Source of the DNA: Glaciimonas soli
GTDB lineage: Bacteria > Pseudomonadota > Gammaproteobacteria > Burkholderiales > Burkholderiaceae_D
DNA length: 64,000 nucleotides
Direction of reading: 5' to 3'
Assembly (NCBI RefSeq): GCF_009497155.1
Contig: NZ_WINI01000005.1
Location: forward strand, 62,001 to 126,000
This document shows, one piece after another, positions 12,840-22,357 of the stretch. A model generated the notes under the pieces. The model was given only the letters and a program-made list of their open reading frames with translations, made no database searches and was not told the origin of the DNA. Position 1 is the first letter of the stretch. Each line of letters opens with the position of its first letter. Both the position numbers and the translations under genes were made by a program.

Positions 12840-14474
12840 TCAAACAAACTGTCCAATCTTTGCGACTACGGCATCACGTACCGAACCACTGACCACAAAC
12901 GATTTTGCCATGACGATATCATTATGGAACCAGCGATCACCATCCAGGCAAGCTGGAATCTGACGACGAATCTCTTGATACGCAGCTTGCGTACCTTGTC
13001 CCAATACAAAACCTGGCAATAAATCCTCTGTCATCGTCAATGCCTGCGCTGCCAGCAACATTTCGACACCGATGATGTACTGAGTATTATCCAAAACCGT
13101 CGCCGCTTTACGCGCACACCAGGTTGAATTGGAAACGTGATCTTCGCTGTTACCTTTAGCCGGAATGCTGTCTACGCTACCAGGCATACACAAAGTTCGA
13201 TTTTCCATTACCAAAGAACTCAACGAACATTGCACCACTGGATAGCCAGTGTTAACACCGCGCACGCCGCTCATTAAATTGCGTGGCAAACCCCATGACA
13301 AAGTTGGATCTATCAAACGCGCAACGCGACGTTCGCAAATGCTGCCCAGATCAGTGATCGCCATCGCCATCAGATCCATCGCTTGTGCCAAATACTGGCC
13401 GTGGAAATTACCGCCAGAGATGATCTCAAAACCGCCACCATCTTTACCGAAAATCAAAGGATTGTCGGTTGCAGAATTAATTTCTTTATCAACGATGTTG
13501 TCGATGTAATCTAAAGCGTCAAATACCGGACCATACACTTGCGGCGAGCAACGCAGCGAGTAAACATCCTGAATCCGCGATGAGTAAGGAATATCGGTGC
13601 GACGTGATTCTTCCGGGAATTGCACAGCGCGTGCTTCATGCGTAGTGCGCGTCGAACCCTTCAATAATTTACGTACCACTGCTGCCGTTTTGATCTGACC
13701 TGCATGCGGGCGTGCTTGTTGAATCCGTGGATCAAACGCGGCCATCTCGGCCCGCATTGCTTCCAGGGTCAAGCCTAAAGACAAACAAGCATCTGATAAT
13801 AGATTGCGTGCGTCATGCGCGACTAATACGGCCACAGCCAATGAAGCGGTACAACCGTTGATCAACGCTGAAGCATCTTTCGCTTTCAGGTCGAATTTAA
13901 CTGGACCAACATTGGCTTTCGTAATCGCTTCCGGTGCGCTCATGCGCTGACCTTGATACATTACTTCGGCTTCGTCGAAACCAGCAATTGCCGCAGCCAG
14001 ATAAGACAAAGGTGCCAGATCGCCGGATGCGCCTACCGATCCTTTTTGCGGCATGATCGGGTGAATGCCTGCATTCAGGAAAGCCAGCAAACGGTCAACA
14101 ACTTCAACCCGCGGTGCTGAATAGTTACTTGCAAAAGCATTGGCACGCAACAGCATCGTAGCGCGGCTGACTTCTTCTGAAAACGGCTCGCCCATACCGG
14201 CGCAATGCGCTTTGATCAGTTGTGTCTGAAACAGCTCGATACTATCAACTTTGATGCGCGTGTCTTTCAACAAACCAACACCAGTGTTGAAGCTGTACAT
14301 CATCGGCGCTTCATCGTGCATCCATGTCGATTCGATATAGTCGCGGCTTTCTTTCAATGCATCGCGTGAAGACTGCGCCAATGTCACCTGCAAATGCGGT
14401 GCACGCGCAACGCTCATCACTTGCGCTGCAGTGAGGGTGAAACCGTCGATGCTGACGCTGTTGTTATTGCTCAT
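12840..14474 (-). CDS. hutH: aromatic amino acid ammonia-lyase, histidine ammonia-lyase-like
   Basis: Lyase of the HAL/PAL/TAL family. 544 residues, slightly longer than usual HutH (~510). The MIO prosthetic group forms from A149-S150-G151 in KGSVGASGDLAPLSY. Tyr60 (MYSFNTGVG) matches the catalytic Tyr, and His90 (KAHCAGMGEP) sits where HAL has its substrate-recognising His. The SVDSIPAKGNSEDHVS segment keeps the Glu but differs from the usual HutH text (SANQEDHV). None of hutU, hutI or hutG is here; it lies 179 bases behind puuD, separated by a structured element. The substrate may be histidine or a related compound. GGAG precedes the ATG. Confidence 0.85.
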   Translation of the reverse strand: MSNNNSVSIDGFTLTAAQVMSVARAPHLQVTLAQSSRDALKESRDYIESTWMHDEAPMMYSFNTGVGLLKDTRIKVDSIELFQTQLIKAHCAGMGEPFSEEVSRATMLLRANAFASNYSAPRVEVVDRLLAFLNAGIHPIMPQKGSVGASGDLAPLSYLAAAIAGFDEAEVMYQGQRMSAPEAITKANVGPVKFDLKAKDASALINGCTASLAVAVLVAHDARNLLSDACLSLGLTLEAMRAEMAAFDPRIQQARPHAGQIKTAAVVRKLLKGSTRTTHEARAVQFPEESRRTDIPYSSRIQDVYSLRCSPQVYGPVFDALDYIDNIVDKEINSATDNPLIFGKDGGGFEIISGGNFHGQYLAQAMDLMAMAITDLGSICERRVARLIDPTLSWGLPRNLMSGVRGVNTGYPVVQCSLSSLVMENRTLCMPGSVDSIPAKGNSEDHVSNSTWCARKAATVLDNTQYIIGVEMLLAAQALTMTEDLLPGFVLGQGTQAAYQEIRRQIPACLDGDRWFHNDIVMAKSFVVSGSVRDAVVAKIGQFV

Positions 14475-14520
14475 AATAGGTGCTCCAAAAATTCTGTTAA
14501 TTCATTTATGGTATTTCGAT

Positions 14521-14648
14521 ACCTCGATAAACCCTAGCCTCAGCTAAAGCTGACTTGATCCATTTATCGTTCCGAGAAGCGCAGCCGTACGCAGGTACGG
14601 TGAGCATCACAGGGACGATAATGGATTGCGCAGTAGGTTTATCGAGGT
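14521..14648. repeat. structured intergenic element, copy 1 (GAGAAGCGCA internal loop)
   Basis: Outer arms of 13 perfect pairs (14521-14533 with 14636-14648). A small hairpin CAGCTAAAGCTG lies inside. The main stem (14559-14573 with 14612-14625) is interrupted by the internal loop GAGAAGCGCA / GAGCATCACA and capped by GCCGTAC-GCAG-GTACGGT. The junction reads GATTGCGCAGTAGGTTT. The second copy at 20753 has the same loop with different stems. It is antisense-oriented to puuD and hutH if the plus-strand reading is the functional one. Confidence 0.8.
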
Positions 14649-14653
14649 GACCT

Positions 14654-15925
14654 TTACTTCGCGCCGGCCTGATACCACGTGCCAATCAACGCACGCTCGT
14701 CATCGGTGATATGCGTCATATTACCTAACGGCATAGCCTTCAACTGAACTGCTTGCTGATAAATTTTGTCAGCATTCTGATGAATCTGTGCTGGCGTATC
14801 GAACATGATACCTGCCGGTGCAGAAGCAAAACCAGGTTGGGTAGGTTGCGCTGAGTGGCAAGTTGCGCAACGTTGCGACAGTACTGCCTGCACGTGCGTA
14901 AAGTCCGCTGCTGGCGCAACCGCTGCTGCTGCAGAATTCACTGCACCATCCGTTGCTGCCGGCGCTGCTGCAGTAGCTGCAACTGGTGCCGGTGCCGGCA
15001 TTGGTTTCGGTGCAATCGCAATCGCTACTGCCAGCAACAAAGCAACGCCGGCGATAGGATAACCAATAGATACTTTACCTGCATGACGCAAGTTGAAGAA
15101 GTGACGGATCAACGCGCCAGCAGCAATAATCGCAGCCAGAATCAACCAGTTATAAGAATGGTTGTAAGTCATGCCATAGTGATTGCTGATCATGATGAAC
15201 AGCACTGGCAACGTGAAATAGTTATTGTGAACGCTACGTTGCTTGGCGCGTTTTCCGTAGATAGGATCTGGCGATTTACCGACTTTCATCGCATCGACTA
15301 ATTTGCGTTGTCCAGGAATGATCACCATCAACACGTTACCCACCATCATGGTACCGATCATGGCGCCAACGTGGATATACGCAGCACGACCACTCAACAA
15401 ATGCGTCAACACATAAGCTGCTGCGACAATGAACACATACATGACGATCCCGAGCAAACCTTCCCGCTTACCTAACGGCGAACGGCACAGTAAGTCATAC
15501 ACGGTCCAACCAATCACCAAAGTGCCGAGACCCACGCCGATTGCTTGCCATGTTGATAAATCAGCGACATCTTTGTTGATCATCATCGCCGAAGCGTTGA
15601 AGTAATACACGATGAACAACATCGCAAATCCGCTCATCCAGGTCGCATAGGCTTCCCACTTGAACCAATGCAAATCTGCTGGTAATTCAGCTGGGGCAAC
15701 CAGATATTTTTGTGGATTGTAGAAGCCACCGCCATGGACTGCCCATAATTCGCCGGACACACCTTTTTTGGCCAGATCTGATCCTGGCGCAGGTGGGCGA
15801 ATAGAGTTATCCAGCCATACGAAATAGAACGATGCGCCAATCCAGGCGATCCCTGTGATCAAGTGCAACCAACGCACCAATAAATTGAGCCAATCGACTC
15901 CGTACGACACCAGTAATGCGTCCAT
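14654..15925 (-). CDS. puuD: urate hydroxylase PuuD with C-terminal cytochrome c
   Basis: Membrane urate oxidase that converts urate to 5-hydroxyisourate, passing electrons to the respiratory chain rather than to oxygen. 423 residues from MDALLVSYGVDWL, with GGTGGAGA ahead of that ATG. The N-terminal ~320 residues hold about eight membrane helices (RWLHLITGIAWIGASFYFVW is the first) with conserved His. An Ala/Pro linker then leads to a cytochrome c domain with CATCH at residues 353-357 and the axial Met in KAMPLGNMTH. Divergent from the LysR gene. Confidence 0.93.
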   Translation of the reverse strand: MDALLVSYGVDWLNLLVRWLHLITGIAWIGASFYFVWLDNSIRPPAPGSDLAKKGVSGELWAVHGGGFYNPQKYLVAPAELPADLHWFKWEAYATWMSGFAMLFIVYYFNASAMMINKDVADLSTWQAIGVGLGTLVIGWTVYDLLCRSPLGKREGLLGIVMYVFIVAAAYVLTHLLSGRAAYIHVGAMIGTMMVGNVLMVIIPGQRKLVDAMKVGKSPDPIYGKRAKQRSVHNNYFTLPVLFIMISNHYGMTYNHSYNWLILAAIIAAGALIRHFFNLRHAGKVSIGYPIAGVALLLAVAIAIAPKPMPAPAPVAATAAAPAATDGAVNSAAAAVAPAADFTHVQAVLSQRCATCHSAQPTQPGFASAPAGIMFDTPAQIHQNADKIYQQAVQLKAMPLGNMTHITDDERALIGTWYQAGAK

Positions 15926-16330
15926 GTCTTCTCCACCTTCAACCAATTTTACGTTCGTCCGCCACTGCGGGCACTGCAGACGAGAGAGGCTTTTTTCCTC
16001 TCAACTCGGTCGCGAACTTTTTGAATTAACTAAGCTGACAGCTCCGCTGCGACCATTATTTTTTAATTCCGATGCATTTTTAAAAACAAGTGCTGCAAAC
16101 ACACAACACTTAAAAAATAAAAAGCTTCGGTTTTACGAAAGATAAACGTGTTACCCAATAAAAATATTGAAGATCACGTATATTTAACATACGCATATTG
16201 ATATACAAAATAATTTGAGCTAATCATACTTGCCACTGGAACAACCTGGTTTAACCTCAAAACACCAAGCTATCCATTCCAATCCGCATATACCAGCCTT
16301 ACATAATAAAAATCACAGAGACAAAACGCC
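15926..16330. other. divergent puuD/LysR control region
   Basis: About 400 bases without a gene. The half near puuD is GC-balanced; the half near the LysR gene is AT-rich and holds a clear dyad at 16177-16193. Promoters for both directions must lie here. Confidence 0.6.
16177..16193. promoter_or_regulatory. candidate LysR-type binding site
   Basis: CGTAT-N7-ATACG dyad in the AT-rich part of the divergent region, about 250 bases before puuD and 140 before the regulator gene. This is the spacing class expected of LysR-type boxes, so the adjacent regulator is the natural candidate. Confidence 0.5.
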
Positions 16331-17266
16331 ATGTCAAAATTACCAGACCATCTCGATATCCACCTTATACGCATACTGTACTTGTTGTTGTGCGAAAAAA
16401 ACGTTTCGCGGGTTGCCCTTAAACTGAATCAGCCACAACCCTCAATTTCCGCTTCCCTGCGTAAATTGCGCGAGCTGACGGGCGATCCATTATTAGTGCG
16501 TGGTGCACGTGGCATGGTGCCGACTCAGCATGGCGAGAGTTTATTGAAGCCTGCCAAGCGCATTCTGGATGAAACCGAACGCTTGTTCGTCCACAAAACC
16601 GCTTTCGTGCCGCAAGATGCTTCACGCACCTTCCATATCGCCGCGCCAGATTATATGAATACGCCATTTTTTCTGGAGCTCGTGTCCAGAATGCGGCGCG
16701 AATCACCAAAAAGTCGCATCGTGATTCATGCACTGGGGCCTGAAACTGATTACGTACGCCTGTTGTCCGATGGTGAATTAGATCTGGTTATCGCTAACTG
16801 GGACGAGCCGCCGCAACATTTGCATCTATCAAAGTTGTTTGACGACCCTATCGTCTGCCTGATGCGTGCTGACAGCGCCTATGCCAAACGCACTGCATCG
16901 GATGCCATGACGGTGGAAGACTATTTAAGCCTGCCGCACGTCGCCCCATGGCAAGTGCTGCCGGGTTATCACGGCATCATTGAAGCCTATCTGGATCGTC
17001 AAAACATGCGCCGCAATGTTGTCGTTGAATCAGCCTATTTCGGCATGTTGCCGTATATGGCCGCACAAACCGATCTGGTACTAACCACCGGCCGACAATT
17101 TGCGCTTTTTTATGAAAAAACCCTGGCATTGAAAAGCTTCACGCTACCAATTAAATTCCCGCCTATGCGTTTTTATCAACTCTGGCATGAACGCGTGCAC
17201 CAGGCTACGGAACACAAATGGTTACGTGAGCAAGTAGGCCTGGTAGCGAAGGCTATGGTGAAGTAA
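16331..17266 (+). CDS. LysR-family transcriptional regulator of the purine locus
   Basis: 311 residues. The N-terminal winged helix (HLIRILYLLLCEKNVSRVALKLNQPQPSISASLRKLRELTGDPLLVR) is typical, followed by a periplasmic-binding-protein-like effector domain with RTFHIAAPDYMNTPFFLELVSRMR. Divergent from puuD and 211 bases ahead of the permease gene, so it probably controls both arms in response to a purine intermediate. The effector is inferred, not seen. Confidence 0.9.
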   Translation: MSKLPDHLDIHLIRILYLLLCEKNVSRVALKLNQPQPSISASLRKLRELTGDPLLVRGARGMVPTQHGESLLKPAKRILDETERLFVHKTAFVPQDASRTFHIAAPDYMNTPFFLELVSRMRRESPKSRIVIHALGPETDYVRLLSDGELDLVIANWDEPPQHLHLSKLFDDPIVCLMRADSAYAKRTASDAMTVEDYLSLPHVAPWQVLPGYHGIIEAYLDRQNMRRNVVVESAYFGMLPYMAAQTDLVLTTGRQFALFYEKTLALKSFTLPIKFPPMRFYQLWHERVHQATEHKWLREQVGLVAKAMVK

Positions 17267-17362
17267 TTCTGCTGAAACAATGCTGCAAAAATGATCAGCA
17301 ATACAATCTTTTCAACTAACAAGGATATATCGACGCACCAAAATCCACTATCAACATGTGCG

Positions 17363-17392
17363 TATAGTTATGGGAATGGTTCCCTATAGTAT
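17363..17392. promoter_or_regulatory. imperfect dyad in the permease promoter region
   Basis: TATGGGAA and TTCCCTATA face each other across a two- to three-base centre, with looser similarity in the flanks. It lies about 90 bases upstream of the permease start. It may be an operator, but the symmetry is imperfect. Confidence 0.3.
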
Positions 17393-17477
17393 CGGATTAC
17401 ACAAACAGTACTGCCAACTAATAGGCATAGTTTGTGCATAAAAATATAACATTTAAATCCGAAAACTGGAGACACTC

Positions 17478-18878
17478 ATGACCACCACCACAGCTACTGA
17501 TCCAGTAGATGAAAAACTCCCTATGGGAAAACTCGCTGCACTCGGCATGCAGCACGTACTAGTGATGTATGCCGGCGCAATTGCCGTACCGCTGATCGTT
17601 GGCGGCGCATTAAATTTAGCCCGAAGCGATCTCGCTTTTTTAATTAGTGCGGACTTGTTTTGCTGTGGTTTGGTAACGTTAATTCAAAGTCTGGGTTTCT
17701 GGAAATTCGGTATCAAAATGCCTGTCATGATGGGCGTCACTTTTGCAGCGGTGGGACCTATGGTCGCCATGGCGGGCAATACTGATCTGACCATCGTGCA
17801 TATCTATGGAGCGGTGATCGTTTCCGGTATTTTCGGCGTCGTCATTGCGCCATATATGAGCCGCATGATGCGCTTCTTTCCTCCCGTGGTTACCGGCACG
17901 GTCATTACGGTGATCGGTGTTTCATTGATGGGGGTCGGTATCAATTGGGCAGCAGGTGGTCAACCAGTGATTGGCACATTGGTCAACGGTGTATTCACTA
18001 AAATCCCTAATCCCGAATATGGTGCGCCAATCAGCCTGGGCATTTCTGCGATCGTGCTGGTGTCTATTTTACTCATCACCAAATATGTCAAAGGTTTCAT
18101 TGCCAATATCTCCGTCTTGATGGGCATGATTATTGGTTTTGCGATTGCTCTGGCAATGGGGAAAGTTGATTTTTTTGGTTTGGAACAAGCAGACTGGTTT
18201 GCCATGATCCGTCCATTCCATTACGGCTGGCCGAAGTTTGATCTTGGTTCTTGTCTCAGCTTGTGCCTGGTCATGATTGTGACGATGATTGAATCAACCG
18301 GGATGTTTATCGCTCTTGGCGCCATTGTTGATAAAGAAGTCGATGACAAAACGCTGGCGCGTGGTTTGCGTACAGATGGTTTGGGTACCATCATCGGCGG
18401 GATTTTCAATACGTTTCCTTATACATCGTTCTCGCAAAACATCGGCCTGGTTGGTGTCACCGGCGTCCGCAGCCGCTTTGTTTGCGCTGCGGCAGGTTTA
18501 ATTTTGATACTGTTTGGTTTATTTCCGAAAATGGCAACAGTTGCTGCCTGCATTCCACAATTTGTATTAGGTGGCGCCGGCCTGGTGATGTTTGGCATGG
18601 TCGCAGCAACCGGCATCAAAATACTTTCTGGCGTCGATTTCAACGGTAATCGGAATAATCTTTTCATCGTCGCCGTCAGTATTGGTGCCGGCATGATACC
18701 TATCGTTGCACCAACTTTCTTCGACAGAATGCCACATTTCTTATCTACTATATTACATAGCGGCATACTGTTGGCATCCACCATGGCGGTATTATTGAAC
18801 CTGTTCTTTAATGGCAGCGGTAAAAATCAAGATTCCCGCGCCTATGCACTGGCAGCAGCGCAAAGTTCTGATCACTAG
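17478..18878 (+). CDS. xanthine/urate permease, NCS2 (NAT) family
   Basis: Inner-membrane proton symporter for a purine base, most likely urate or xanthine given the neighbours. 466 residues with 12-14 helices. The NAT signature is visible as SQNIGLVGVTGVRSRF, and ESTGMFIALGAI matches the TM8 substrate-site region. TGGAGA lies seven bases before the ATG. First gene of the rightward purine arm, 85 bases ahead of the uraD-allC fusion. Confidence 0.93.
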   Translation: MTTTTATDPVDEKLPMGKLAALGMQHVLVMYAGAIAVPLIVGGALNLARSDLAFLISADLFCCGLVTLIQSLGFWKFGIKMPVMMGVTFAAVGPMVAMAGNTDLTIVHIYGAVIVSGIFGVVIAPYMSRMMRFFPPVVTGTVITVIGVSLMGVGINWAAGGQPVIGTLVNGVFTKIPNPEYGAPISLGISAIVLVSILLITKYVKGFIANISVLMGMIIGFAIALAMGKVDFFGLEQADWFAMIRPFHYGWPKFDLGSCLSLCLVMIVTMIESTGMFIALGAIVDKEVDDKTLARGLRTDGLGTIIGGIFNTFPYTSFSQNIGLVGVTGVRSRFVCAAAGLILILFGLFPKMATVAACIPQFVLGGAGLVMFGMVAATGIKILSGVDFNGNRNNLFIVAVSIGAGMIPIVAPTFFDRMPHFLSTILHSGILLASTMAVLLNLFFNGSGKNQDSRAYALAAAQSSDH

Positions 18879-18963
18879 TTTCTGGTTATATGGCGGGCTC
18901 ACCCGCATATTACATAAAAAATATCGGCGAGTGAGCTTCGCCGGCAGCAGATGGTTAAGCAAA

Positions 18964-20724
18964 ATGACGACTTTAGAACAACTAAATAACAGCGACATCA
19001 ACACTTTCGTAGCCACCCTCCACGGTATTTATGAGCATTCGCCATGGATACCGGAACGTGCGGCCAAGCTGCGTCCTTTTGCCAACATCACTGCATTGAA
19101 ACTAGCGATGCAAGACATCGTTCGACACGCCACCAACGATGAACAACTCGGTTTGATTCGTGCCCACCCGGAGTTGGCTGGCAAAGCAGCGGTTTCTGGC
19201 GAGTTAACCGCAGAATCGACCGATGAACAATCTAAAGCCGGACTGCATCTATGCAGCCCGGAAGAATTCGCCACACTACAAAAACTCAATAGCGATTACA
19301 ACAACAAATTTGGCTTCCCCTTCATCATTGCGGTCAAAGGCGCTGATGGTAAAGGTTTGACGCGCGAAACGATTATTAAAATGTTTACCCGCCGCTTGAG
19401 AAATCAAGTCGCCGATGAACAAGCCGAAGGTTTACGCCAAATCGGCCGTATCGCAGAAATGCGGGTTAACGCGTTGCTCGGTTACACACCAAAATTAGGT
19501 GAGTTGATCATGCAATGGTCGGAAGTGATCGGCGCATGGAGCGATGATGAAACCGGTTTGACTTGTGCTTACATGACCGATGCCCACCAACGCACTGCCA
19601 AGCAAATCGCCGTCTGGATGCGTGAAGCGGGCATGGAAGCACATATCGATGATGCCGGTAACGTGGTTGGTCGCTATTTGTCCGACAACCCGAATGCCAA
19701 AACCTTGCTGACAGGTTCCCATTACGACACCGTACGCAATGGTGGGAAATACGATGGCCGCGAGGGGATTTTGCTACCTATCGCCATCGTTAAACACTTA
19801 CATGAACGCGGCGAAAAACTGCCGTTCCATTTTGAAATTGTCGGTTTCTCGGAAGAAGAAGGCGTACGTTTCAAAAGCACATTCTTGGGCAGCAATGCCG
19901 TCACTGGCCGATTCGACATGGCTTTGTTAGACAAGCTCGACAACGACGGCATTAGCATGCGCGATGCTTTGCAAAAAGCCGGCCACACCCCTGAAAACAT
20001 CCCTGCATTAGCACGCAATCCGACCGACCTGCTCGGTTTCGTTGAGGTGCATATCGAACAAGGTCCAGTGTTATTGGGACGCGATCTGCCGGTGGGTATT
20101 GTCACGTCTATCGCAGGCAGTTGCCGCTACATGGTGCAATTGAAAGGTGTCGCCAGCCATTCCGGCACGACCCCGATGAACATGCGCAAAGATGCCGCCA
20201 CTGCCGCTGCCGAAATCGTGCTCTACGTCGAACAACGTTGCGCGCAAGATCAACATGCATCACTGGTCGGCACCGTCGGTCAATTGCAAGTACCAAACGG
20301 TTCCACTAATGTAATTCCCGGCGCTTGCGTGTTTTCTTTGGATATTCGCGCCGAAGTGGACACCATCCGCGACGCTGCCGTCAACGATGTGTTGAAGTTC
20401 ATTGAAACAACTTGTCAACGTCGTTTTGTTGAAAGCAGCGTAGAAAAAATGGTATCCGAGCCAGCGGCACCATGTGCACCGTGGTTGATGGAACAACTGA
20501 GCGCTGCGACGAAACGCGCTGGCGTCAAGCCATTCAAATTGGCTTCCGGTGCGGGTCATGATGCGATGGCGATTGCACACATCACCGATGTAGCAATGTT
20601 GTTTACGCGTTGTGGCAATGGTGGAATCAGTCACAATCCATTGGAAACCATGACTGCCGACGATGCTGAAGTATCGGCGCAAATCTTGTTGGATTTTTTG
20701 CGTAATTTTAAAGCTAAGGCGTAA
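18964..20724 (+). CDS. uraD/allC: fusion of OHCU decarboxylase and allantoate amidohydrolase
   Basis: Two purine-ring-opening enzymes in one 586-residue chain. Residues ~1-165 are OHCU decarboxylase (UraD), with IRAHPELAGKAAVSGELTAE carrying the catalytic His. Residues ~175-586 are an M20-family amidohydrolase: GSHYDTVRNGGKYDGREG binds the dimetal centre, FSEEEGVRF has the catalytic Glu, and VEHIEQGP-type text (VHIEQGPVL) and GVASHSGTTPM follow. Together they would yield allantoin and, after an allantoinase encoded elsewhere, degrade allantoate. I start at MTTLEQLNNSDINTF because UraD homology begins there; the frame is open 51 codons further upstream. No strong ribosome site. Confidence 0.92.
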   Translation: MTTLEQLNNSDINTFVATLHGIYEHSPWIPERAAKLRPFANITALKLAMQDIVRHATNDEQLGLIRAHPELAGKAAVSGELTAESTDEQSKAGLHLCSPEEFATLQKLNSDYNNKFGFPFIIAVKGADGKGLTRETIIKMFTRRLRNQVADEQAEGLRQIGRIAEMRVNALLGYTPKLGELIMQWSEVIGAWSDDETGLTCAYMTDAHQRTAKQIAVWMREAGMEAHIDDAGNVVGRYLSDNPNAKTLLTGSHYDTVRNGGKYDGREGILLPIAIVKHLHERGEKLPFHFEIVGFSEEEGVRFKSTFLGSNAVTGRFDMALLDKLDNDGISMRDALQKAGHTPENIPALARNPTDLLGFVEVHIEQGPVLLGRDLPVGIVTSIAGSCRYMVQLKGVASHSGTTPMNMRKDAATAAAEIVLYVEQRCAQDQHASLVGTVGQLQVPNGSTNVIPGACVFSLDIRAEVDTIRDAAVNDVLKFIETTCQRRFVESSVEKMVSEPAAPCAPWLMEQLSAATKRAGVKPFKLASGAGHDAMAIAHITDVAMLFTRCGNGGISHNPLETMTADDAEVSAQILLDFLRNFKAKA

Positions 20725-20752
20725 TAAAACTTTCATTCCGAATCAGTTATTG

Positions 20753-20874
20753 GACTTCTTTCAGAGTCGTAGCGAGCGGATCAGAATTGTGCCGAGAAGC
20801 GCAACCGTCCCCAACAAGGGCGGTGAGTATCACAGGCGCAATCCCGATTGGCGCAGCAGGTTCTGAATGAAGTC
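20753..20874. repeat. structured intergenic element, copy 2 (GAGAAGCGCA internal loop)
   Basis: Outer arms of 13 bases (20753-20765 with 20862-20874, one mismatch). Inner helix ATTGTGCC / GGCGCAAT (20786-20793 with 20835-20842), then the internal loop GAGAAGCGCA / GAGTATCACA, capped by ACCGTCC / GGGCGGT. The junction is GATTGGCGCAGCAGGTT. Loop and junction match copy 1 at 14521, while the stems differ in sequence but still pair. It lies in the leader of the 8-oxoguanine deaminase gene, in the sense orientation. Confidence 0.8.
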
Positions 20875-20933
20875 TTTCTTGGGTTTAAACAGATAGACGT
20901 ATCAAGATACATATCTTCGGTCTTGGCAAACAC

Positions 20934-20974
20934 CCTCACTCCTGCCCTTCTTCCGTTTGCGGGAGTTGGGCTCC
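20934..20974. repeat. short hairpin repeat related to the prfB-lysS gap
   Basis: GCCCTTCTTCC and GCGGGAGTTGGGC form a stem after the words GGTCTTGGCAAAC. The same lead words and a similar hairpin occur at 52373-52426, so this is a dispersed repeat. It lies directly upstream of the 8-oxoguanine deaminase start. Confidence 0.55.
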
Positions 20975-20995
20975 AAGCAAAGAAGGTAGGTAAAT

Positions 20996-22357
20996 ATGTC
21001 AAAAACTCTCTTAATCAAAAATGCCCGCGTTGTCGTCACCATGGACGAACAACGCCGTGAAATTGCCAACGGTGCTGTTTTCATTCGCGATAACGTCATC
21101 GAACAAGTTGGCAGCAGCGCCGATTTGCCGCACATCGCTGACGAAGTGATTGATGCCAGCAACCACGTTGTGATTCCCGGCCTGGTCAACACCCATCACC
21201 ATATGTACCAAAGCCTGACGCGCGTGATTCCTGCAGCGCAAAATGGTGAACTGTTCAACTGGCTGACTAACCTCTATCCAATCTGGGCCAACTTGACGCC
21301 GGAAATGATTCAGGTTTCTACACTGACAGCGATGGCGGAATTGATACTGTCTGGCTGCACTACCAGCAGTGATCATCTGTATATTTATCCGAACGGTTGC
21401 AAACTCGATGACAGCATAGAAGCCGCGCAAAAAATCGGTATGCGCTTCCATGCTGCACGCGGCTCGATGAGTGTCGGTCAGTCCAAAGGTGGGCTGCCAC
21501 CGGATTGCGTGGTCGAAGATGAAAAAGCCATTTTGAAAGATACACAACGCCTGATCGAGACCTATCACGATGCCAGTCGTCATGCGATGCAACGCATCGT
21601 GGTGGCACCGTGCTCTCCGTTTTCAGTATCACGTGATTTGATGAAAGAAGCCGCTGTACTGGCTCGTCATCACGGCGTTTCACTGCATACGCATTTGGCA
21701 GAAAACGTCAACGATATTGCCTACAGCCGCGAAAAATTCAACATGACGCCGGCCGAATACGCCGAAGATTGCGGCTGGGTTGGTCACGATGTCTGGCATG
21801 CGCATTGCGTGCAACTCGACGACGAAGGTATTTACATGTTTGCCCGCACCGGCACTGGCATTGCTCACTGCCCTTGTTCAAATATGCGCTTAGCGTCCGG
21901 CATCGCCCCGATTCGCAAAATGATCGATGCTGGCGTATCAGTTGGCCTTGGTGTTGATGGTTCGGCATCCAACGACGGCGCGCACATGCTGGGCGAGACA
22001 CGCCAGGCTATGCTGCTGCAGCGCGTCGGCTTTGGCCCTGATGCGATGACCGCACGCCAAGCGCTGGAAATCGCCACGTTAGGCGGTGCAAAAGTGCTCA
22101 ACCGCGACGACATCGGTGCTCTCAAACCGGGCATGTCGGCTGACTTGGTGCTATTTGATTTGAATCAGGTAGGTTTTGCCGGCGGCTGGCACGATCCGGT
22201 TGCCGCATTGGTGTTCTGCACGCCGTCTGACGTCGCTTACAGCGTGATCAACGGGCAAGTTGTGGTGCGCAATGGGCAATTGACGACAGTCGATTTGGGA
22301 AATGTATTGGAGCGTCATAATAAATTGGCAATAACTTTGGCAGAAGCCGCACGCTAA
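20996..22357 (+). CDS. 8-oxoguanine deaminase family amidohydrolase
   Basis: Predicted to deaminate 8-oxoguanine to urate, feeding PuuD. 453 residues in the amidohydrolase superfamily. Metal ligands: NTHHHMYQSLTR, HTHLAEN, WHAHCVQL and GVDGSASNDGAHM. The last motif, with LYPIWANLTPEM, fits the 8-oxoguanine deaminase/hydroxydechloroatrazine ethylaminohydrolase branch better than plain guanine deaminase. AAGGTAGG precedes the ATG. Last gene of the rightward purine arm, behind a structured intergenic element. Confidence 0.88.
   Translation: MSKTLLIKNARVVVTMDEQRREIANGAVFIRDNVIEQVGSSADLPHIADEVIDASNHVVIPGLVNTHHHMYQSLTRVIPAAQNGELFNWLTNLYPIWANLTPEMIQVSTLTAMAELILSGCTTSSDHLYIYPNGCKLDDSIEAAQKIGMRFHAARGSMSVGQSKGGLPPDCVVEDEKAILKDTQRLIETYHDASRHAMQRIVVAPCSPFSVSRDLMKEAAVLARHHGVSLHTHLAENVNDIAYSREKFNMTPAEYAEDCGWVGHDVWHAHCVQLDDEGIYMFARTGTGIAHCPCSNMRLASGIAPIRKMIDAGVSVGLGVDGSASNDGAHMLGETRQAMLLQRVGFGPDAMTARQALEIATLGGAKVLNRDDIGALKPGMSADLVLFDLNQVGFAGGWHDPVAALVFCTPSDVAYSVINGQVVVRNGQLTTVDLGNVLERHNKLAITLAEAAR

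Follow-up and report, generated by a model that had tools for sequence, protein, structure and literature searches.

A hairpin repeat with one structured strand, placed behind stop codons in Glaciimonas soli and other Betaproteobacteria: probably a mobile palindromic element

Two hairpins in a purine catabolism locus

The 64,000-nucleotide stretch of the Glaciimonas soli genome analyzed here (the window; contig NZ_WINI01000005.1, positions 62,001 to 126,000) contains a purine catabolism locus. NCBIfam typing identified genes for a LysR regulator, a xanthine permease, an OHCU decarboxylase/allantoate amidohydrolase fusion, and an 8-oxoguanine deaminase, as well as a HutH-type ammonia-lyase that scores below the cut-off of its model. 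Two intergenic segments of this locus, 14521..14648 (copy 1) and 20753..20874 (copy 2), each form a long hairpin on the plus strand. An initial annotation of the window considered that they may be purine-sensing RNAs, with a mobile palindromic unit or a role at the DNA level as an equally fitting alternative. Our analysis favors the mobile unit. The two segments are probably copies of a non-autonomous, dispersed, mobile palindromic repeat found mostly in Betaproteobacteria and resembling enterobacterial repetitive intergenic consensus (ERIC) sequences, repetitive extragenic palindromic (REP) sequences, and miniature inverted-repeat transposable elements (MITEs). Its copies are found chiefly right after stop codons, and it is the strand antisense to the gene that is structured.

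Copy 1 is matched over 14535-14651 (61.5 bits, E 3.7e-14) by R1, the covariance model described below. Its outer arms, ACCTCGATAAACC at 14521..14533 and GGTTTATCGAGGT at 14636..14648, show perfect 13-bp complementarity. Further in, the two conserved strands of an internal loop, GAGAAGCGCA at 14574..14583 and GAGCATCACA at 14602..14611, enclose a capping hairpin of 7 bp with a 4-nt loop (14584..14601). The stop codon of a minus-strand gene (14654-15946) lies 5 nt past the outer arm, at 14654..14656 on the minus strand (locus L144, offset -3), and this gene has no NCBIfam match. Copy 1 is antisense to its neighbors, as first described, and stop-abutting antisense placement proved to be usual for the repeat family. 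Its 5' junction reads CTAGCCTCAGCTAAAGCTGACTTG instead of the normal CGTAGCGAGCG, which adds a small side hairpin (14535-14558). Copy 1 is thus a derived form of the repeat, and three further copies in the same genome (L147, L148, and L149) have the same kind of junction change. These four, together with the possibly decayed L152, make up a three-way-junction subtype in which an extra TCAGCTAAAGCTGA-type hairpin replaces CGTAGCGAGCG; a motif similar to this extra hairpin adjoins L025.

Copy 2 scores higher (94 bits, E 5.8e-23) and lies in sense orientation, 28 nt 3' of the gene at 18811-20724. All of its conserved parts are on the plus strand: the 5' junction CGTAGCGAGCGG (20768..20779), the internal loop strands GAGAAGCGCA (20794..20803) and GAGTATCACA (20825..20834) on either side of the capping hairpin (20804..20824), and the 3' junction GCGCAGCAG (20851..20859). 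The 13-base outer arms first assigned to both copies hold for copy 1, but in copy 2 only 12 of the 13 positions pair. The internal loop described as common to both was borne out: the pattern GAGAAGCGCA ... GAG(C/T)ATCACA occurs exactly twice in the window, once in each copy, and in none of 100 shuffles (mean 0.00). Both copies also fold better on the plus strand than expected by chance, with z-scores of -7.64 (copy 1) and -5.71 (copy 2) and none of 200 shuffles folding equally well.

Consensus fold and the strand that carries it

A scan of a genome collection with the exact core pattern matched at least 117 stretches. Ninety-two pattern matches had short spacing, 8 of these lacked the inner helix and were removed, and filters for length, junction motif, and 88% identity reduced the remaining 84 to 56 non-redundant copies. 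These form alignment A1, on which R1 (118 model positions, 44 pairs) was built. The repeat is non-coding, about 118-150 nt long, and forms one long hairpin. From the base inward, it consists of a variable outer helix of about 15-18 bp; a conserved junction, CGTAGCGAGC/GCGCAGYAG (consensus C[GTA]GC[GA]GCGG opposite CCGC[GCA]GY[A]G); a variable middle helix with a small mismatch pair; the conserved internal loop GAGAAGCGCA/GAGCATCACA (consensus C[GA]GA A GC[GCA] opposite [GA]GC A TC[ACA]G); and a capping helix with the consensus RCCGTAC-NNNN-GTACGGY, whose loop is usually 4 nt. By inspection of A1, a theme recurs in the unpaired parts, where a 2-nt GA faces a 3-nt RCA beside an isolated 2-bp step. 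The termini are the least conserved part, and outer arms differ even among copies of a single genome.

The compensated stems seen in the two window copies are real and general. Across the 56 copies, 92.6% of cells in the named structure are paired, and 35 of the 44 pairs show two-sided changes; RNAalifold finds such changes in 33 of 42 pairs. The covariation score is 0.617, against 0.176 for shuffled alignments and no more than 0.129 with the partner shifted. Together with the G·U excess described below, these values support the selection on structure proposed in the initial annotation. Copies fetched by pattern are biased toward intact cores, and the invariance of the GAGAAGCGCA loop in A1 is partly due to its use as a selection criterion. 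However, the copies that R1 found in the G. soli genome include GAGCATCGCA and other core variants, and R1-found copies mostly retain the non-complementary loops, which argues for selection on the loops.

Which strand is kept foldable? Because every G·U pair reads as an A·C mismatch on the complementary strand, an excess of G·U identifies the strand as drawn as the one kept foldable. The helices contain 180 G·U cells versus 32 A·C cells; excluding a short helix in which G·U is the most frequent pair leaves 140 versus 30. Of 188 copies, 177 fold more stably as the structured strand than as its complement (mean difference -8.7 kcal/mol), compared with a split of 108 versus 74 in flanking windows. 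We also compared copies at the same site in different genomes, using 28 pairs hand-picked from 41; three Zetaproteobacteria-type pairs and most one-flank matches were dropped, and the 28 are non-independent, six coming from one group of four loci. Of the one-sided changes from Watson-Crick pairs in this set, 71 gave G·U, 23 gave A·C, and 59 gave other mismatches, while 167 cells (both directions counted) changed on both sides and remained Watson-Crick. The fold of one strand therefore appears to be kept, and the excess of G·U over A·C and the fixed loops point to selection as the cause.

Distribution, placement, and turnover of copies

Among the pattern matches listed, those that have correct spacing and an inner helix are largely betaproteobacterial, with Janthinobacterium, Massilia, Herbaspirillum, Ralstonia, Azoarcus/Aromatoleum, Thauera, Chromobacterium, Undibacterium, and others as carriers; the few listed from elsewhere are from Solimonas, Zetaproteobacteria, and a Legionellaceae bin. 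The initial annotation proposed a covariance-model search of relatives. With R1, we found the repeat in 60 of 116 genomes sampled from the bacterial family and in 33 of the 44 genera sampled; strict filters were used and at most 31 candidates were scored per genome, so high per-genome counts in this survey are lower bounds. R1 gave 47 copies in G048 and 49 in G092, two genomes of one genus (g6), 26 in G018, 30 in G040, 3 in G028, and 1 in G026. One side observation in G040 is a direct tandem of two copies 3 nt apart (G040:C12:447395-447512 and 447516-447633), which recalls the tandem Beta-proteobacterial repeat element of Bordetella (discussed below). The G. soli genome itself (G000) has 23 R1 matches at E<=1, of which 18-19 are credible. 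The gene-context set below omits two matches that read already counted hairpins on the reverse strand (L146 and L150) and the weak matches L151-L153. L152 may be a decayed copy, whereas L151 (G000:C23:328565) and L153 (C29:221650) belong to a different, MITE-looking inverted-repeat element with ends like AGGACTTACGCAAAATTG.

In a phylum-wide search, 39 of 398 genomes matched at E<=1e-4, and outside the order no match exceeded 54 bits. Among 27 of these loci that we examined, 9 had a core with 19-20 of 20 bases (8 of them in family f39), and the rest had other inner loops or were unrelated hairpins. The outer junction also occurs with other inner loops (L349 and L350, GAGGACCGGA/GAGGACCGCA; L354, L355, and L372), and the inner loop occurs with another outer part in f39 (L356, L359, and L365). 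Such combinations in other lineages hint at a modular superfamily with exchange of modules. No Rfam 15 family falls on the repeat, either in a gathering search of the window or in a permissive search of 14400-21000 (E<=5), and none falls on the repeat at ten related loci at E<=0.5. Neither NMT1, one of the 4227 Rfam models and the class named for comparison in the initial annotation, nor any other family matched the repeat. We recognized this repeat in none of the published descriptions consulted, of which that of the Bordetella repeat element discussed below comes nearest, and searches with its sequence letters return only papers that print those letters.

A home-made codon model, rather than a published gene finder, supplied the gene calls around copies. 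Of 159 copies, 63 lie antisense within a tandem gene pair, 33 between convergent genes, 27 in sense within a tandem pair, and 15 between divergent genes, with 21 incomplete contexts. For copies whose right-hand gene is on the opposite strand, we measured the stop codon of that gene from a fixed point 45 nt from the core; it falls between -19 and +2, within about 20 nt of the end of the outer stem, in 81 of 105. For a left-hand gene on the same strand, abutment occurs in 7 of 63 (Fisher p ~1e-17, the copies not all being independent). The difference persists without same-site relatives (68/92 opposite-strand versus 6/57 same-strand), and abutment was seen at 72 of 90 copies against 31.9 expected under uniform placement in free space. 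Most G048 copies that lack a called abutting gene have TGA, TAA, or TAG near the arm, by inspection and without a control. According to the initial annotation, hundreds of copies scattered at random gene ends, with no strand preference, would make this a plain extragenic repeat; we found tens of copies at gene ends, but with the strong strand preference just described (81/105 versus 7/63).

The abutting and nearby genes are diverse. Those read by inspection of C-terminal sequences include ahcY (S-adenosylhomocysteine hydrolase), sucB (2-oxoglutarate dehydrogenase E2), ahpC, rplL (ribosomal protein L7/L12), pstB, a riboflavin enzyme, a secretin, and others. No common substrate was seen among these genes and the NCBIfam-typed genes of the window.

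Close relatives differ in which sites are occupied. At the syntenic purine locus of four congeners of G. soli, the eight intergenic regions contain no R1 match, and both copies are absent in all four; the second gap is about 85-117 nt in the congeners versus about 285 nt here, and the first gap is not shorter in the congeners. In genus g6, site A is empty in all four congeners aligned. Site B, where the repeat lies between a TGA stop and the AAAGGA of the next gene, is without the repeat in all four congeners; in three relatives 0-4 nt are found at this position, and G072 has a different insert. Site C lacks it in two of three congeners, and the third, G005, has a reduced hairpin. We queried 20 further sites and obtained alignments for 12, which yielded 18 comparisons. 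The hairpin is absent in 10 of these (L163, L164, L167, L168, L169, L171, L174 twice, L180, and L182), and two more show internal-deletion relics in which the arms are kept (L156 and L169 in G092). In G092, L154 is either missing or excised. An absence at a single site is not always distinguishable from a deletion. Occupied sites thus differ between close relatives by loss, which the relics display directly, and, we infer, by gain. A different GTAG-type palindromic repeat (GTAGGTCGGCTTAGCGCAGCGTAAGCCGACA and relatives) lies at or beside several of the same g6 sites: L173, the L182 site (L346), and L283 (site B in G072).

A probable mobile repeat and its alternatives

The dispersed family and the filled versus empty sites between congeners support the mobile palindromic unit named in the initial annotation. 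In the mechanism we propose, a trans-acting protein would recognize the single-stranded, loop-bearing hairpin, as RNA or as single-stranded DNA, and would copy or move the repeat. Insertion or retention would be favored just after a stop codon, a position at which neither the gene nor the start signals of the next gene would suffer damage. After insertion, the hairpin may affect termination or the stability of 3' ends, effects reported for ERIC and REP. In a more specific version, which we think unlikely, the insertion of a mobile RNA or single-stranded-DNA element would be coupled to translation termination: it would enter directly after in-frame stops, antisense to the gene, and be guided by a fold that is strand-specific and whose loop modules can be exchanged.

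How does the repeat compare with known small mobile palindromes? It would work like ERIC, Correia, and RUP as these are described (PMC2229807). It fits the general description of ERIC and MITE sequences in being non-coding, under 200 bp, dispersed, and present or absent between close relatives. The 127-bp ERIC of enterobacteria (also IRU or RU-1) is of similar size and likewise forms a long stem-loop in dispersed non-coding repeats, and an orientation-dependent effect on upstream mRNA is described for it (PMC2229807). However, ERIC is described with 7-bp terminal inverted repeats, a target-site duplication, and a terminal TA (PMC2229807), whereas the arms of our repeat vary with compensation, no TA signature was seen, and the aligned filled and empty sites show no constant duplication. 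Unlike in ERIC, its conserved parts are internal loops with G·U asymmetry. Correia/NEMIS elements of Neisseria are hairpin-forming, non-coding mobile repeats of about 107 or 155 bp, described with 24-bp terminal repeats and a target-site duplication (PMC2229807); the termini of our repeat are its least conserved part.

The Beta-proteobacterial repeat element (BRE), described in 2011, may be a relative, a comparison made by description only (PMC3110155). BRE is also betaproteobacterial (Bordetella, Polaromonas, Delftia, and others), chromosomal only, and mostly intergenic; it may overlap the ends of open reading frames by a few bases, reaches up to 29 copies, and is not oriented with replication (PMC3110155). 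It differs in being 75-91 bp long, often tandem (as variable number tandem repeats), and in some cases entirely inside genes (PMC3110155). With regard to the purine idea our repeat is ordinary; its strand and placement are unusual relative to known small mobile palindromes.

Several observations weigh against a mobile element with a selected fold. First, the hairpin is present in a congener in 6 of the 18 comparisons (L156, L164, L166, L171, L182, and L183), and some sites are common to different genera (L057/L171, L016/L154, L092/L102, and L034 with L089); both would fit old, retained copies. Second, no consistent target-site duplication was found at aligned filled and empty sites, where short direct repeats were recognized only around L168 (GGACGT) and, imperfectly, L154. 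Third, no transposase tracking copy number was found in the 116 genomes. Proteins like the REP-associated tyrosine transposase (RAYT; NF047646) occur in 113 of them, 54 above the curated cut-off, irrespective of whether the repeat is present, a distribution that is uninformative on a partnership; RAYT strength does not track copy number, and three genomes with at least 31 copies have weak RAYT matches only. Fourth, the absence of any convincing plasmid, phage, or viral copy is unusual for an active mobile element. Plasmids gave no match at E<=1e-5 and four weak partial matches at E<=1, the longest spanning 40% of the probe. In a control at the size of the plasmid search, 175 of 188 known copies are detectable at E<=1 and 144 at 60 bits or more, with a probe that resembles this control set. 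Phages gave no copy at E<=0.01, and none of 10 pattern matches in viral contigs has the inner helix (4-5 of 11 pairs). Finally, the 12 closest same-site pairs (identity of at least 0.94) show a G·U to A·C ratio of just 13:6, and some arm complementarity could come from palindrome template switching without selection.

Two further leads on mobilization were dropped. Replication-strand bias looked strong on some contigs of the G. soli genome, but copies are balanced in the single-contig G048, with 20 on the plus and 27 on the minus strand and halves of 10+/14- versus 10+/13- (origin assumed at coordinate 1). A transposase encoded between opposed copies was also considered; seven stretches were fetched and L214 and L215 alone studied, and the one stretch read, 1.1 kb in G048, holds a riboflavin gene by inspection.

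What else could account for a hairpin at this position? It could be a host-functional RNA, transcribed and acting in place at 3' ends as a terminator, an insulator against antisense transcription, a stabilizer, or a protein-binding RNA, and kept for that reason. Same-site copies across species and genera do keep their pairing through two-sided changes, and several of the sites shared between genera lie behind core genes. A Bordetella BRE, a possible relative, lies between two minus-strand genes and was assigned a plus-strand small RNA, a transcript of about 80 nt seen on a Northern blot (PMC3110155). However, since the strand kept foldable mostly runs antisense to the abutting gene, it is not the 3' untranslated region of that gene. 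Moreover, the roughly 16 nt before the arm are not conserved in sequence in genus g6 (no promoter scan was made and nothing further upstream was examined), and 10 of 18 comparisons with close relatives lack the hairpin. We regard host function as possible without considering it probable.

The repeat could instead be an oversized REP whose movement depends on a RAYT/Y1 (HUH) transposase working on single-stranded DNA, but we consider this doubtful. REP/GTAG repeats are palindromic with GTAG at the hairpin foot; they lie predominantly downstream of coding regions (PMC3733652). Our repeat has GTAG at the foot of its inner hairpin and a strand-specific fold. Closeness to stop codons is reported for a share of REPs (PMC12306157, PMC3733652): 446 of 4,072 predicted in E. 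coli, and 260 of 496 in an earlier set, lie within 15 nt of a stop codon (PMC12306157). Y1-type proteins, moreover, are encoded in nearly all genomes surveyed. However, REPs are 20-40 bp long (PMC3733652), whereas our repeat is about 118-150 nt, has sequence-fixed internal loops, and occurs in numbers that RAYT-like matches do not follow; its GTAG lies inside the outer arm and not at one end of a 20-40 bp palindrome. In the listed coordinates of G048, G018, and G095, compared by eye, no RAYT match lies closer to a copy than about 6 kb. Insertion of IS605-type elements is biased to the lagging strand, whereas G048 shows no replichore bias.

Neutral maintenance, in which template switching at quasi-palindromes keeps the arms complementary without selection for the fold, is very unlikely. 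Perfected palindromes do exist (L141, L138, L139, and L042). In L141 (G000:C29:232482-232597), the inner halves are exact complements and the asymmetric loop is lost, likely through a template-switch event. However, this process would erase non-complementary loops (which pattern-fetched copies keep by construction) and would not on its own account for the 180:32 ratio of G·U to A·C.

The two remaining candidates are highly improbable. A purine- or urate-responsive riboswitch, which should be conserved with purine genes and lie in sense upstream of them, is suggested by the presence of both window copies in a purine catabolism locus; we reject it because both sites are empty in four of four congeners, other copies flank diverse, unrelated genes, no Rfam family matches, and copies lie behind genes, mostly antisense. 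An integron attC-like recombination site folded from the bottom strand would suit the placement, since attC sites lie directly behind stop codons and fold from the strand antisense to the gene, but sequence-conserved loops are not, to our knowledge, an attC feature, and the integron integrase TIGR02249, detected at E<=1e-60 in 13 of 116 genomes, is absent from the G. soli genome and from six other high-copy genomes (G005, G018, G040, G048, G092, and G109).

These copies add a structured repeat family that has no Rfam 15 match and shows very strong covariation. The family is unusual in that the fold is kept on the strand opposite the abutting gene and the hairpin is bordered by the stop codon of that gene. 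This leaves two readings: stop codons are recognized by a mobile element, or a hairpin is required at precisely this position for a host function. In the annotation of genomes that carry the repeat, such copies should not be mistaken for riboswitches.

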